Source: Candidatus Binatia bacterium (GTDB taxonomy: Bacteria; Desulfobacterota; Binatia; UBA12015). Taken from it: DNA of 64,000 nt. This document shows positions 40,727-48,260 of this stretch, in pieces. Position numbers and translations under genes: made by a program. The stretch is taken from positions 1 to 64,000 of the forward strand of contig JAQWRY010000037.1 of assembly GCA_029243485.1 (NCBI GenBank), given 5' to 3'. Each line of letters starts with the position of its first letter. Position 1 is the first letter of the stretch. The notes below the pieces were generated by a model. It saw nothing but the letters and a program-made list of their open reading frames with translations. It ran no database searches and was not told where the DNA came from.

Positions 40727-41725
40727 GGGCGGGGCTCCCTGCTCTGCGCACTCCTCCCGATCTCCCCTGCGGGGCACGCCGGATTGATCCCCGACGTCCT
40801 GCCCGAGCGTCTGCGCGTGACGCTCGAGTAGGCCGCCGAGAACATCGGCAAGTGGAGCTTCACGTGGGACGAAGGCCTGTATCTCGACTCACCCGAACAG
40901 TACGGGACCTTCAAGCTCGGAGGGCGACTCCAAACCGACGCGGGCGTCGTCATCCCCCGTGCGGCGATAGACCAAGAATTCGGCATGGGAGGCTCCGCTG
41001 CGCGCGCCGTCGTCCGCCGCGCTCGCTTCTACGTGTGCGGCACCACGGGCAAGCACGTCGCCTGGAAGCTCCAATACGACTTCGCGAATCAGCTGTTCGC
41101 CGACATCTACCTCGCGCTCCGCGAGATCGGCCCGGTCGACCTCGTTTTGCTGGGCCACTTCAAGGAACCGTTCTCCCTCGAAGAGTTGGTGAGCAGCAAT
41201 CAGACCGTGCTCATGGAACGCGGCCTTCCAAACGCGCTTCTCACCGGCAAAAAGACGGGAGCATCCGCGTTGCAGGCGTTCCTCGACAACCGCCTCACCT
41301 TCCAGATCAGCATGTTCGCCGACACGTCCAACGTCGAGCAACTCGGCGACACCTTCAGTCAGACGGGTTCCGGCTTCGGAGTCGAGGTCGCTTACACCGC
41401 GGGTCGGCTCTACACGCAGAAGGCGGGGATTCTGACCAAGGCGGCGGTCGTGGACCAGGGAACGCGGACGTTTCACGGCCTCTACGTGCTGGCCGCCTGG
41501 CTCCTCACCCACGACCACCGACTGTTCGAGGGACAGCGCGGGATCTGGGGACGTGTCACGCCGCGGTGCGATGCGTTCACTTCCGGTTGCTGAGGAGTCT
41601 GGGAGGTCGCCGCACGCTTTTCACGTCTCGACCACGAGAGCGGCGCGTCCCGCGGTGGGATCCTGAACGACACCACGCTCGGACTCAATTGGTACCTCAC
41701 GGACACGACGACCTGCCGCCGATCA
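40727..41725 (+). pseudogene. Dead phosphate-selective porin (OprO/OprP-like)
   Basis: One frame reads as an outer-membrane porin: a signal-like LLCALLPISPAGHA, then YGTFKLGGRLQTDAGV and FYVCGTTGKHVAWKLQYDFAN. LGHFKEPFSLEELVSSNQTVLMERGLPNAL is the phosphate-porin signature region. TFHGLYVLAAWLLTHDHR and GVWEVAARFSRLDHES close it, ending LGLNWYLTDTT. In-frame stops occur at 40829 (TAG) and 41591 (TGA). The start is lost and the last strands are missing where panD begins. The protein cannot be made full length. Confidence 0.88.
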
Positions 41726-41750: not shown

Positions 41751-42158
41751 TCAGACGGCGACGACCGCGCCTACTGCACTCTGGTGTTTGATCCGGTTCT
41801 CGTCGTCGACCATTACGATCATCGGCTTGTGGGCGCGCGCGGCGTCTTCTTCGATCCACGTGAACGCACCGATGATCAAGAGATCTCCCTCGGAGACCTT
41901 CCTGGCGGCCGCTCCGTTGACGCAAATTACGCCGGAGTCTGGCTCGCCTTCGAGCGCGTACGTCTCGAAGCGCTCACCGTTGGTGACGTTCCAGATCTGA
42001 ACGGCCTCCCACTCGAGGAGGTCCATTCCTTCCATCAGCGTCTTGTCGACAGTGATGGACCCCTCGTAGTGCAGGTCGGCGCCGGTGACGGAGGCGCGGT
42101 GGATCTTGCCTCGCAGGACTTTGCGCATGGGCTGAGTCTTGGCCATGACGATGCTCAT
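41751..42158 (-). CDS. panD: Aspartate 1-decarboxylase
   Basis: This makes beta-alanine from aspartate for pantothenate. The 135-aa pro-enzyme contains LRGKIHRASVTGADLHYEGSITVD, where self-cleavage between Gly33 and Ser34 gives the pyruvoyl group. The later segments NGERFETYALEGEPDSGVICVNGAAAR and GDLLIIGAFTW are typical. The first ATG overlaps the panBC stop as TGATG. An internal ATG (residue 11) matches the usual family start, so the N-terminal ten residues are an extension or untranslated. It is the last gene of the pan operon. Confidence 0.95.
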   Translation of the reverse strand: MSIVMAKTQPMRKVLRGKIHRASVTGADLHYEGSITVDKTLMEGMDLLEWEAVQIWNVTNGERFETYALEGEPDSGVICVNGAAARKVSEGDLLIIGAFTWIEEDAARAHKPMIVMVDDENRIKHQSAVGAVVAV

Positions 42159-43942
42159 CAGCGTCCGGACGACTTCGCGTAGAGCGCGGCCGTCGGGACC
42201 TGGTGCGAACCCGACACCCGGTCGGTGTCGGAAGATTTCGTGATGAGGTCCGGGCTCACATCTGAAGGGTCGACCCGGACGTTGTCGATGAGGCGGACGC
42301 CGCCCAACCAGATCGCCACCGCAAGCTGAACGGGCCGCTCGAGATTCGAGACGGCTTCGAGGGAGTCGACGTCGACGATCCGGGCATACTCCACGGTCGC
42401 CCGCGGCTCAGCGGCGAGAGACGTGCGCACCACGCTCTCTACGCCGGCCGAATCGCGCTCACCATCGGCGACCGCCAACCGCGCGGCGTCGAGTGCCTGC
42501 GGCACGCAGATCGCGGCCATGCGCGATTCCGTATCGAGTCGAGCGTTGCGGCTCGACAGAGCGAGGCCGTCCTTTTCTCGGACGGTCTCTCCGCCAACGA
42601 CGTCGATCCCGAAATCGAGATCGCGAACCATCCGTCGGACGACGGCGAGCTGCTGATAGTCCTTCAATCCGAAAACGGCGACGTCCGGCTGAACCGCGTG
42701 GAACAGCTTGCTGACGACCGTCGTGACGCCGCGGAAATGTCCGGCGCGATGTGCGCCACACAGATCATCCGTGAGCCGCTCGACATCGACCGTCGTGACG
42801 AAATCATCGGAGTACATCTGTCGCGGATCCGGCGTGAACAGAACGTCGACGCCTTCCTCTGCGAGCAGGCGACGATCGCGTTCGAGGTCGCGGGGATACG
42901 AGACCAGGTCGTCTTCGCGGTCGAACTGAATCGGATTCACGAAGATCGAGACGACCACACGGTCGCCGCGCTCGCGCGCCTGGCGAACCAAAGAGAGATG
43001 CCCCTCGTGGAGATAGCCCATCGTCGGCACGAAGGAGACGGTGAGACCGGCGCCGCGCTGACGCGCGGACCAGGTGCGCATCTCTTCGATCTTCGATATC
43101 TGCTGGAGTCGATCTCCGGCACGCTCTGCGCTGCCCTTCACGTGGTAGCACTCATCGTCGCTCGGGAAGGCGCCGGTGTTCACCTCGTCGACGTAGGTTT
43201 CGACGGCCTCGGTGATCTGGCGACCCAGGTTCGCGTACCGGCGAACGAAGCGAGGCACCTTGCGCTCGCCCGTGTCGATTCCGAGCAGGTCGTGCATGAC
43301 GAGCACCTGGCCGTCGCAGTGCGGGCCGGCACCGATGCCGATCGTCGGGATGTCGACGGTTTCCGTGATCTGTCGCGCGAGGTCGAGAGGCACGCCCTCG
43401 ATCACCATCGCGAAGGCTCCCGCCTCGGCGACCGCGCGGGCATCCTCGAGCACCTTCTGCCGGCTCGCGTTGTCGCGCCCCTGCACGCGGTGTCCTCCCA
43501 TGCGGTGCATGGCTTGCGGAGTGAGGCCCACGTGGCCGAAGACCGGAATCTCCGCATCGACGAGCGCGCGGATCTTTTCGGCCTGAGCGACTCCGCCTTC
43601 GAGCTTCACGGCACCCGCACCGGCCTTTAGGAACTTGCCGGCGTTCACGAGCGCGTCGTTCGTGGTCAGGTACGACCCGAACGGCATGTCGCCGAGCACC
43701 ATGGCTCGCGTGTTCGCCCGAGCGACCAGCCGGGTGTGATAGACCATCTCTTCGAGGGTGACCGGCAAGGTCGACCCTTCCCCCTGGACGACCATGGCGA
43801 GGCTGTCGCCCACGAGAAGAATGTCGACGCCGGCGCGATCGATGAGGCTCGCGAACGTACAATCGTACGCGGTAACCATCGTCAGGCGGCGTTCCGACCC
43901 TTTCGAAGAGAGAATTTCCGGAACAGTGATTGGTGCGCTCAC
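42158..43942 (-). CDS. panBC: PanB-PanC fusion: ketopantoate hydroxymethyltransferase / pantothenate synthetase
   Basis: A single 594-aa frame carries two pantothenate enzymes. Residues 1 to about 265 are PanB (3-methyl-2-oxobutanoate hydroxymethyltransferase): LTMVTAYDCTFASLIDRAGVDILLVGDS, VLGDMPFGSY, AVKLEGG, VFGHVGLTPQ and IGIGAGPHCDGQVLVMHDLLG. After a linker of about 15 residues, PanC (pantoate-beta-alanine ligase) runs from about 280: VPTMGYLHEGHLSLV (Met308), FVNPIQF, VFGLKDYQQLAVVRRMV and LSSRNARL. Both sets of active-site residues look intact. GTG start with GGGAGG ribosome-binding site. A GTG within the linker (YHVKG) could allow separate PanC. panD is coupled downstream. Confidence 0.93.
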   Translation of the reverse strand: MSAPITVPEILSSKGSERRLTMVTAYDCTFASLIDRAGVDILLVGDSLAMVVQGEGSTLPVTLEEMVYHTRLVARANTRAMVLGDMPFGSYLTTNDALVNAGKFLKAGAGAVKLEGGVAQAEKIRALVDAEIPVFGHVGLTPQAMHRMGGHRVQGRDNASRQKVLEDARAVAEAGAFAMVIEGVPLDLARQITETVDIPTIGIGAGPHCDGQVLVMHDLLGIDTGERKVPRFVRRYANLGRQITEAVETYVDEVNTGAFPSDDECYHVKGSAERAGDRLQQISKIEEMRTWSARQRGAGLTVSFVPTMGYLHEGHLSLVRQARERGDRVVVSIFVNPIQFDREDDLVSYPRDLERDRRLLAEEGVDVLFTPDPRQMYSDDFVTTVDVERLTDDLCGAHRAGHFRGVTTVVSKLFHAVQPDVAVFGLKDYQQLAVVRRMVRDLDFGIDVVGGETVREKDGLALSSRNARLDTESRMAAICVPQALDAARLAVADGERDSAGVESVVRTSLAAEPRATVEYARIVDVDSLEAVSNLERPVQLAVAIWLGGVRLIDNVRVDPSDVSPDLITKSSDTDRVSGSHQVPTAALYAKSSGR

Positions 43943-45280: not shown

Positions 45281-46219
45281 TCATACCTCTCCGTCCCCGA
45301 ACGCCGCGCCGACCGACAGACCGAGTCGCTGCGCCGCCTCGGCGGCCGGGAGCTTTTCCTTCCCCACCCGCATCTTGGCGATGGTCAGAGTGCCCGCGTC
45401 CGCCCCGGAGCCAACCGCCACGGTGAGGCCGCCGTCCCCGACGCTCACCACCGTGCCCGCCGGTACCGCGGAATCCGGCGCCGGCCCCCGCTTCGCGCCA
45501 TACAAGCGGCTCTGCTCCCCACCCGCCCGGGCATGCGCACCCGGCTGAGGGTCACAGCCGCGAATCAGGTCGTAGACCTTCTTGGTCGGCTGGTTCCAGT
45601 GGATGCAGCCGTGCTCGTCCCTGCAGAGGGGCTCGTAGGTGGCCTCGGACTCGTCCTGGGCGACCCGCGGCGCCTTGCCCGCGGCGATGAGATCCACGGA
45701 CTCGACCATACCCGCGATGCCGGGCTCGAAGATCTTGTCGAAATACAGCGAGGCTCCGGTGTCGTCAGGCGAGATCTCGATCTCCTCCTGGAGCAGGATC
45801 GGCCCGGTATCGATGCCCGGATCGGTCCAGAACACCGTGAAACCGCCTCGGGTCTCCCCCGTGATGAGCTGCCACGCGAGCGCGCTGCCGCCCCGGTAGC
45901 GGGGCAAAAGCGAGGGGTGAAAGCAGATCGACCCGTGCTTCGGCGCGTCGATGACCGCCTGGGGGATGATCTTGGTGACGAAGGCCAGGACACCGACGTC
46001 GGCCTCCGCCGCCTTCACCTGCGCCTCGACCTCCGGTGTCTTGTAGCTCGGGGGGGTGTGGAGCGGGACGCCGGCCTTTTCCGCCTCGGCGGCGAGCGGG
46101 TCGGCCCGGTCACCCCTGGGAGCGGGCGCGTAGACCGCCGCAATGTCGTGACCACAATCCCGGAGTCCGACCAGCACTCGCTGGCCGAAGGCGGCTTGCC
46201 CGAAGAGCACGATTCGCAT
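45281..46219 (-). CDS. Formyltransferase-family protein resembling the 10-formyl-THF dehydrogenase hydrolase domain
   Basis: The 312-aa protein has the Fmt-type catalytic region SICFHPSLLPRYRGGSALAW, followed by WTDPGIDTGPILLQEEIEI with the catalytic Asp. The C-terminal OB-like domain has ATYEPLCRDEHGCIHWNQPTKKVYDLIRGCDPQPGAH. This combination matches the N-terminal hydrolase domain of ALDH1L-type 10-formyltetrahydrofolate dehydrogenase more than Met-tRNA formyltransferase. It probably uses 10-formyl-THF or a related C1 carrier. The aldehyde dehydrogenase part is absent and no def/fmt pair is adjacent. Divergent from the PKD lipoprotein gene. Confidence 0.82.
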   Translation of the reverse strand: MRIVLFGQAAFGQRVLVGLRDCGHDIAAVYAPAPRGDRADPLAAEAEKAGVPLHTPPSYKTPEVEAQVKAAEADVGVLAFVTKIIPQAVIDAPKHGSICFHPSLLPRYRGGSALAWQLITGETRGGFTVFWTDPGIDTGPILLQEEIEISPDDTGASLYFDKIFEPGIAGMVESVDLIAAGKAPRVAQDESEATYEPLCRDEHGCIHWNQPTKKVYDLIRGCDPQPGAHARAGGEQSRLYGAKRGPAPDSAVPAGTVVSVGDGGLTVAVGSGADAGTLTIAKMRVGKEKLPAAEAAQRLGLSVGAAFGDGEV

Positions 46220-46346
46220 GACCCAAAGAGCTACCACGGCGAGGCTTTCTGTTTCCAAGGCTCGGAGGCGGTGGTACATCTGGGAAGATCGGCGGGCAGC
46301 TGTGGCCCGCATCCCAAGAATTGATTCCCGGAGGAACAAGCACAAG

Positions 46347-46784
46347 ATGAGAGCGTTGCGATCGTGGAGCATCACCCTGGCCGGATGCATCGCCGGCACC
46401 ACCCTTCTCCTCGCCGGCTGCACCCAGCCCGACACCGCCGACACACCGACGCCGGCGGCCGAGGCACCTGCCGCGACGGAACCTGCCGCCGCCAAGGCGA
46501 GTGCCGTTCCGATCATCATCGACGAACTCTACGTCGACGCGGAGGCCGAGCCCGATGAAGGGACCCCGCCGCTGATCGTGATGTTCACGTCAATCGTGGA
46601 GGACCACACCGGCGACTTCACCTGCGAGTGGGACTTTGGGGACGGCACACCCAAGTCGAGCGAGCTGAACCCGAAGCACACCTACAAGAAAGAGGGCGAC
46701 TTCATCGTGACCCTCGTCTGCAAGGACACGAAGGGCGTCGAGGGCGAGACCGAGATCGACGTCACTGTCTACGAGTACGAGTAA
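46347..46784 (+). CDS. PKD-domain lipoprotein
   Basis: This 145-aa lipoprotein has a signal peptide with lipobox LLAGC, an Ala/Pro/Thr linker (about 28-50) and one PKD domain. In the domain, GTPPLIVMFTSIVEDHTGDFTCEWDFGDGTPKSSELNPKHTYKKEGDFIVTL shows the typical WDFGDG and HTY signatures. PKD domains mediate binding to polysaccharide or protein at the surface. The ribosome-binding site GGAGGA lies about 12 nt upstream of the ATG. A strong terminator follows. Confidence 0.85.
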   Translation: MRALRSWSITLAGCIAGTTLLLAGCTQPDTADTPTPAAEAPAATEPAAAKASAVPIIIDELYVDAEAEPDEGTPPLIVMFTSIVEDHTGDFTCEWDFGDGTPKSSELNPKHTYKKEGDFIVTLVCKDTKGVEGETEIDVTVYEYE

Positions 46785-46849: not shown

Positions 46850-47584
46850 TCAGTCCAACGCGTCGAGGGCAGCGGCGAGTTCTGCCGCGACGCTTCGGCA
46901 GGCCTCGTCGGTGCGGATGAGGGCGTTGTTGATCTCGAGTTCGACGTAACCGATGCCGTGCGCCCGCCCATGGCGACGCGCGGCATAGATGAGTCCGTCG
47001 AGACCCGAGTAAGGCTGGTTGTACCTCACGATGAAGCCTCGGCCCTTGAGCGCCAAGCCCAAACCGCGCGCCAGCGGCTCGTGGTCGTCGAAGAGAACAC
47101 CCATGTCGAGCCGGCGCGTCCGACCGTCCATCGCCGGCGTGAAGCTATGGAGGGAAAGGAGCCGGACCGTGCGCCCGTCCGCCTCGCGGCGCGCGCGCGC
47201 GACCATCCGGTCCACCCGGTCGTGGTACGGCTCGTGGTAGAGCGCCAGTCGCCGGCGTCGTTCGACCTTCGTGACCTTGGCGTTGGCCGGGATCATCCGG
47301 CCGTCACTCCTCTGCGGGATCAGCGACGCTTCGTCGGGCGTCCGATTGCAGTCGACGAGGAGCCGCGAGTACTTCGACGCCACGCTCGGCGCCCCGAGCT
47401 GCTCCGCCACCGCCTTCATCACAGCCGCCGCTCCGACGTCCCAGCCGATGTGGTCGCGCAAATCCGCGCGTGCGAGGCCGAGCGTGCCGTATTCCCGCGG
47501 CACGGCGCAACCGCCGTGCTCGCACGTGAAGACCCAACTCGACTCGCGCGCATCACCCCCTGCCCGCCCACGCGACACCGTCAC
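46850..47584 (-). CDS. N-formylglutamate amidohydrolase-family protein
   Basis: This 244-aa metal-dependent amidase-like protein has FTCEHGGCAVP with the conserved Glu-His metal site, SRLLVDCNRTPDE, and RLLSLHSFTPAMDG. YVELEINNALIRTDE near the C-terminus completes the family pattern (HutG-like/PF05013). The GTG at 47584 was chosen because it overlaps the stop of the upstream dienelactone-hydrolase-like gene as GTGA. A GTG at 47626 would add 14 residues. No other histidine-degradation gene is nearby, so a role in histidine catabolism is unproven. Confidence 0.85.
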   Translation of the reverse strand: MTVSRGRAGGDARESSWVFTCEHGGCAVPREYGTLGLARADLRDHIGWDVGAAAVMKAVAEQLGAPSVASKYSRLLVDCNRTPDEASLIPQRSDGRMIPANAKVTKVERRRRLALYHEPYHDRVDRMVARARREADGRTVRLLSLHSFTPAMDGRTRRLDMGVLFDDHEPLARGLGLALKGRGFIVRYNQPYSGLDGLIYAARRHGRAHGIGYVELEINNALIRTDEACRSVAAELAAALDALD

Positions 47585-48260
47585 GTGGCCAGATGGTCCT
47601 GGAGGAGAGCCGGGAGCTTCTGCCACGCGTCTGCCGCAGCGGCCTCCTGATAGGAAGGACGCTCGTCACAGAAGAATCCGCGAGCGCCACCGTCGTACAG
47701 AACGCCCTCGGCCGAGCCCGGCACCTCGGCGAACTTCGCCTTCACGGCATCCACCTCGTCGAGCGGGATGAAGCCGCCCTTCTCCCCGAACAATGCGACG
47801 ATCGGGCACGAGAGGTCCCCCGCCTGATCGAGGAGCCCGCCGATGCCGCCGCCGTAGAACGTCGCGGCCGCCTGGAGCCGGAGATTGCAGTCCGTGAGGA
47901 AAGTCATCCTGCCGCCCATGCAGAAGCCGGGCATTCCGATGCGATCGCCGCGGACGGCGAAGCATCGACCTCCGAGAGGATGCCTTCGTCGGCCAGAGTG
48001 CTCATCAGGCCGATCGCCTTCGGAAGATCCGAATACTCGGCCAAGCCGTCTTCCGAGCGGTAGTAGAAATCGGGTGCGATCCGGACACAGCCCTCCGCCG
48101 CAATCCGATCCGCGACGCTTTTCATCTGCCTGTTCAGGCCAAAGGCCTCCATCGCGACCGAAACGCCAGGAAACGGCCCGGATCCGGCCGGAGAGGCCAC
48201 GTGAGCGGCCATCGAACCGTCCTTCGTGGCGATCCGGATGTCCTCGGTTTTGATCTCCAT
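47581..48260 (-). pseudogene. Dead dienelactone-hydrolase-like gene
   Basis: The first part (ATG at 48260) reads MEIKTEDIRIATKDGSM and VSVAMEAFGLNRQMKSVADRIAAEG. Near 47960 a frameshift is needed to continue as FAVRGDRIGMPGFCMGGRMTFLT, with the nucleophile Cys. Two further catalytic positions are lost. The Asp segment reads GEKGGFIP (Gly in place of Asp), and the His segment reads GARGFFCDERPSY (Arg in place of His). A few residues before VRGDRIG also appear deleted. The stop still overlaps the downstream GTG start. It is inactive as a hydrolase. Confidence 0.85.

Follow-up and report, generated by a model that had tools for sequence, protein, structure and literature searches.

Ketopantoate reductase acts between the step catalysed by PanB (ketopantoate hydroxymethyltransferase) and that catalysed by PanC (pantothenate synthetase). 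Fusions of enzymes in and around this pathway have been described in several settings. The closest is panBC of the whitefly Bemisia tabaci, a fused gene gained by horizontal transfer (PMC5157087, PMC10530615, PMC9972918, PMC6167482, PMC10357772). It carries PanB and PanC in one gene, in an order suggested by the gene name, it goes back to bacterial panB and panC genes that lay side by side, and the middle step is left to a separate enzyme. As described there, the whitefly gene is eukaryotic, contains introns and is allied with Pseudomonas genes after transfer (PMC5157087), and the symbiont ilvC supplies the middle step. Other fusions are found in alveolates, with KPHMT-KPR in Toxoplasma and a KPHMT-KPR-PBAL frame in Vitrella and Chromera (PMC8717973, PMC8764084). 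Pantothenate-pathway enzymes, PanB included, are joined here too, but the joined steps are consecutive (PanB plus the reductase) or comprise all three, whereas the chain reported below has no reductase. PanC is also joined to another enzyme in the PanC/(d)CMP kinase family PRK13477 (NF010004), although there the partner is a kinase; the present protein reaches 289.8 bits with this profile, whose cut-off is 524, and its match covers no more than positions 3-280 of 514, leaving the kinase half unmatched. CoaBC (PPCS/PPCDC) is a stable two-enzyme fusion of the CoA pathway that is multimeric, forming a dodecamer in mycobacteria (PMC7770189), but it joins consecutive steps and is present in most bacteria (PMC12570885). 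No description of a bacterial PanB-PanC fusion was found among the papers listed by searches of the open-licence PubMed Central literature. The gene described here is a new native bacterial instance of this known fusion type, common to all sampled members of one family; unlike the whitefly gene, it is native to a bacterium and is followed by panD.

The gene lies on contig JAQWRY010000037.1 of a Candidatus Binatia bacterium (GCA_029243485.1), within the 64,000-nucleotide stretch that was analysed, hereafter the window. It is laid out as follows.

42158..43942, minus strand: fused panBC gene of 594 aa, starting at GTG and ending in TGA, with GGGAGG 8 nt 5' of the start
43160..43930, minus strand: PanB (ketopantoate hydroxymethyltransferase) domain, residues 5-261, PF02548
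43100..43141, minus strand: linker, residues 268-281, between the native C-terminus of PanB (..DECYH267) and the PanC domain, from junction comparison
42278..43099, minus strand: PanC (pantothenate synthetase) domain, residues 282-555, PF02569
42161..42277, minus strand: C-terminal tail, residues 556-594, with conservation weak toward the end and model confidence low from 570

Reading of the ORF on the minus strand gave no internal stops over the 594 codons. Both halves are well above their Pfam cut-offs (PF02548, 359.1-361.7 bits against 28.7; PF02569, 336.2-338.7 bits against 20.7) and are also recognised by the NCBIfam equivalogs for panB (TIGR00222, 319 bits against 207.55, residues 9-267) and panC (TIGR00018, 307.3 bits against 212.75, residues 280-557). 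The initial annotation, of two complete enzymes of non-consecutive steps in one uninterrupted frame with a linker of about 15 residues, is thus borne out, 14 residues separating the native end of PanB at H267 from the PanC domain at 282. panBC encodes a genuine PanB-PanC fusion. In a profile search of the whole genome (a draft of 88 contigs, 6.5 Mb, 97.5% complete), the fused protein is the single match to PF02548 and likewise to PF02569.

Active-site motif sets are present in both halves, as had been claimed from the sequence. The PanB half carries GDSL, GDMPFG, VKLEGG, HVGLTPQ and VIEGVP; GDSL, GDMPFG, VKLEGG and VIEGVP, which we take to hold the metal and substrate residues, align with their counterparts in Burkholderia PanB structure sequences. 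The PanC half carries PTMGYLHEGH, FVNPIQF, GLKDYQQL and SSRN. The active site of Mycobacterium tuberculosis PanC is given as His44, His47, Asn69, Gln72, Lys160 and Gln164 (PMC5772511), and by motif and spacing the counterparts of these are H312, H315, N336, Q339, K427 and Q431. The spacings agree apart from a single-residue difference between H315 and N336 (21 against 22 in M. tuberculosis), and all six residues are invariant in an alignment of the 14 fused rows. An AlphaFold model built from that 14-row alignment is only moderate in confidence (mean pLDDT 76.1, pTM 0.53) and is silent on oligomers. It has two folded parts, and pLDDT falls below 50 at the linker (257-277), from residue 570 onward in the tail, and in some loops. 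The best Foldseek match of the PanC half is 2ejc (TM 0.93 by target), and the PanB half has a looser match to 3vav_B (TM 0.84 by target, rmsd 6.7).

In whole-genome protein searches, a stop-free PanB-PanC frame is found in all 14 sampled genomes of the family, spanning six genera; in two of these (G006 and G010) the frame meets a contig end within PanC, with the C-terminal part unseen in the same frame. The fused protein has a match in 55 of 58 relatives searched. Across the class, joined matches at E 1e-112 come from 39 of 148 genomes, of which 14 are stop-free and correspond exactly to the family, and 25 contain at least one stop. These last are all outside the family (25 of 134 genomes), with the joined match in the same frame interrupted by one or more stops. 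The fused frame is absent from all 110 class genomes outside the family that were read frame by frame (42 in the first rounds and 68 added later), panB and panC being separate or broken by stops; the remaining outside genomes comprise 13 without a match at E 1e-30 and 11 that matched and were left unread. The 13 genomes of 148 without a PanB or PanC match at that threshold, G021, G052 and G056 among them, may have lost pantothenate synthesis, be incomplete or carry divergent genes. In one family member a second, more distant PanB-like match (G012:C219:1129-1842) has 45% identity and could be either a paralogue or a contaminant.

By locus, the first frame reading gave 19 fused and 93 split out of 112, the 19 being made up of three readings of the window, 13 relatives, and three of these repeated under public names. 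In the second reading all 31 loci with both genes were split, and the remaining two were reductase loci. Among the best 80 loci of a larger number in named genomes, three are fused and 77 split, and the three fused loci appear identical to three genus relatives already counted. Several candidates for a wider distribution were rejected. In family f6, equal open-frame lengths hinted at a further fused lineage (G018, G024, G050), but a stop lies between the genes, and G114, G118, G120, G129 and G142, which had long open-frame values, are all split on frame reading. A scan of plasmids returned 671 records with a match, of which one was looked into: H16, a single unbroken tblastn piece on a Mesorhizobium plasmid, has two stops between the domains. 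On this plasmid (L168, NZ_AP023244.1), panB is followed by an in-frame, unlisted panC-like stretch, with the second of the two stops just before the PanC core; the stretch may be a decayed panC.

Four phylum-level samples were also searched. In the sample of the phylum to which the window belongs (395 genomes, among them its own and some from the class), only the window's match is stop-free out of 38 joined matches. Every joined match contains stops in the phyla of Thalassotalea (43 matches, 398 genomes), of a Spirochaetes MAG (5 matches, 296 genomes) and of a Deferribacteraceae MAG (13 matches, 50 genomes). In these four samples frames were looked at only where the match was joined, so a fusion that aligns in several pieces would be missed, and Bacillota, Actinomycetota and Bacteroidota lie outside the phyla sampled. 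The initial annotation had called a PanB-PanC chain uncommon, and had named as grounds for refutation a search showing the fusion to be common and already characterised. It holds to the extent that none is found outside one family in these samples, and the bacterial samples do not show the fusion as common; those grounds apply in part, however, since whitefly panBC is a published example of this fusion type (PMC5157087).

To place the fusion, PanB and PanC trees were made from 97 rows, 14 of them fused, taking in 20 of the 80 named loci, dropping six duplicate loci and leaving out the 68 later loci. In both trees the fused rows all fall on one side of one branch (SH-aLRT 99 in each). Both were built by a quick method that gives no bootstrap values, long branches are flagged among the outside rows, and in the two of them the fusion has a single origin. 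Among the bacterial rows sampled, the fused ones make up a separate clade; by the clades, with whitefly panBC published as allied with Pseudomonas, the fusion is probably an event independent of the whitefly one.

The junction suggests how the fusion came about. In many unfused relatives PanB ends in FPxxEHSFH* or a close variant, and panC starts from 0 to some tens of bases after panB, often in the same frame. In the fused rows the PanB end reads FPSDxExYH or similar and is followed, in most, by 14-25 extra residues leading into PanC; in the window it reads ..FPSDDECYH-VKG.., continuing beyond the native end of PanB. As the chain runs on past the point where the relatives stop, the fusion is best read as having arisen by loss of the panB stop and read-through of the spacer. 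The exact ancestral junction is a reconstruction, as many class members have longer PanB tails unlike EHSFH. The linker is poorly conserved, and its length varies among fused rows by whole codons. Junction dN/dS is about 0.16, and within the window's genus (four genomes, six pairs) pN/pS is 0.19 for PanB, 0.20 for PanC, 0.285 for a 20-codon junction and 0.65 for the C-terminal tail. Thus, the junction evolves as translated sequence, and the tail is loose. A mixed alignment (A2, 67 rows, fused and single-domain) was set aside because its junction was badly aligned.

Taken as a whole, panBC very probably encodes a bifunctional PanB-PanC enzyme that originated once, in the family ancestor, by panB stop loss and spacer read-through into panC, and has been kept since. 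In the proposed sequence of events, the stop codon of panB would have been lost in that ancestor, allowing translation to continue in frame across a short spacer and on into the neighbouring panC, and the fusion would have been retained thereafter, being in this organism the sole source of both enzymes. The product would most likely behave as a pair of catalytic modules that work independently and are joined by a flexible tether. The PanB module would make ketopantoate, a separate and unlinked PanE (or IlvC) would reduce this to pantoate, which the PanC module would join to beta-alanine, supplied by PanD from the next gene. Any benefit would then come from fixed 1:1 production and co-assembly, not from direct channelling. 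In the genome, one PanE is over the cut-off, on a separate contig (G000:C88) and with ApbA and ApbA_C domains, and there is one IlvC (G000:C62). With PanE present but unlinked, direct channelling is without support and is presumably absent. With the reductase step in between, PanE and IlvC encoded elsewhere and two folded parts in the model, two tethered enzymes in a fixed ratio are favoured. We infer that both activities are present, that the chain takes an oligomeric form, and that it is probably intact in the cell, although proteolysis or an internal start that has escaped recognition could yield two enzymes.

A selected metabolon is one alternative. PanC is a dimer. For M. tuberculosis and E. 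coli, PanB is reported to be decameric (PMC7770189), so a particle shared with PanC dimers is possible, in which a PanB decamer would carry PanC dimers on short tethers and recruit free PanE, with ketopantoate and pantoate passing within one particle. Retention across the whole family fits such a benefit, but would be expected anyway once two needed genes share one chain. PanE, which would have to act between the two steps, is nonetheless encoded on another contig, and the variable, poorly conserved linker has no sign of an interaction site. This arrangement is therefore unlikely; if true, it would be a bacterial pantothenate metabolon whose chain leaves out its own middle enzyme, and fusion of the first and last steps would have been favoured because it recaptures an intermediate set free between them.

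That the long frame gives two products, with free PanC arising from an internal start in the linker (GTG at V268) or by proteolysis, is quite unlikely. The linker region is of low confidence in the AlphaFold model, and the GTG, put forward in the initial annotation as a possible PanC start, is present in the window and its three genus relatives. However, these are only four of the 14 fused rows, the other ten having an aligned Ala, and no GGAGG-like Shine-Dalgarno sequence precedes the GTG, unlike the main start with its GGGAGG. Free PanC from this codon was rejected on the grounds of its poor conservation and absent ribosome-binding site. An ATG common to 12 listed loci near the junction falls within the PanC fold, and most unfused PanCs have the same ATG. 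Finally, loss of a stop or frameshift between panB and panC through an assembly or sequencing artefact, conceivable for a draft in 88 contigs, has a negligible probability and is refuted by the stop-free frame in all 14 family genomes, as well as being contrary to linker lengths that differ by whole codons and junction substitutions of coding type.

The single tethered chain thus preferred is encoded between the following genes.

41751..42158, minus strand: panD (aspartate 1-decarboxylase), TIGR00223 153.6 bits
44095..44799, minus strand: deoxynucleoside kinase-family gene, upstream, 152 nt from panBC, PF01712 122.2 bits

Of the family loci, 12 extend past panBC, and panD comes next in 11 of these, including that of the window; in the other (L014) there is no panD within 1.4 kb downstream, and two further family loci end at a contig edge. 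Translational coupling of panD through a TGATG overlap had been proposed. The close spacing behind panBC stands, but the overlap is specific to the window and was rejected as a conserved coupling site: the three genus relatives have TGAGGAG at the panBC stop, with panD starting 10-11 nt after it. The TGATG of the window is therefore probably a one-base change inside an old Shine-Dalgarno site. As the window retains an ATG with first base 42146 (MAKTQ..) at the position matching the panD start of the relatives, this codon, rather than the overlapping ATG at 42158, is probably the conserved start. The deoxynucleoside kinase-family gene is upstream in eight of the 14 family loci, with some of the other six having short flanks. 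Promoter and terminator scans gave counts near those of shuffles.

Further upstream, the strand of the pan genes also encodes a formyl transferase-like protein (45281-46519, minus strand, PF00551 plus PF02911) and a protein resembling N-formylglutamate amidohydrolase (46850-47626, minus strand, PF05013). PanB takes its one-carbon unit from a folate donor. On the other side, a 202-aa ORF (40985-41593, plus strand), considered together with the bases after it to about 41730, is convergent with panD. It matches Porin_O_P (PF07396, 64.6 bits), with the best stretch spanning only profile positions 26-146 of 370, and may be a shortened or frameshifted porin.

For annotation, one gene can hold both panB and panC, and organisms of this kind should not be misread as being without one of them. 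For the family, panBC is a clean natural case of fusion between two non-consecutive pathway enzymes, apparently through loss of a stop codon, that has persisted in the members sampled, with the unfused relatives showing the likely before-state. It offers a ready test case of whether fusion of this kind gives a kinetic advantage or is simply tolerated.
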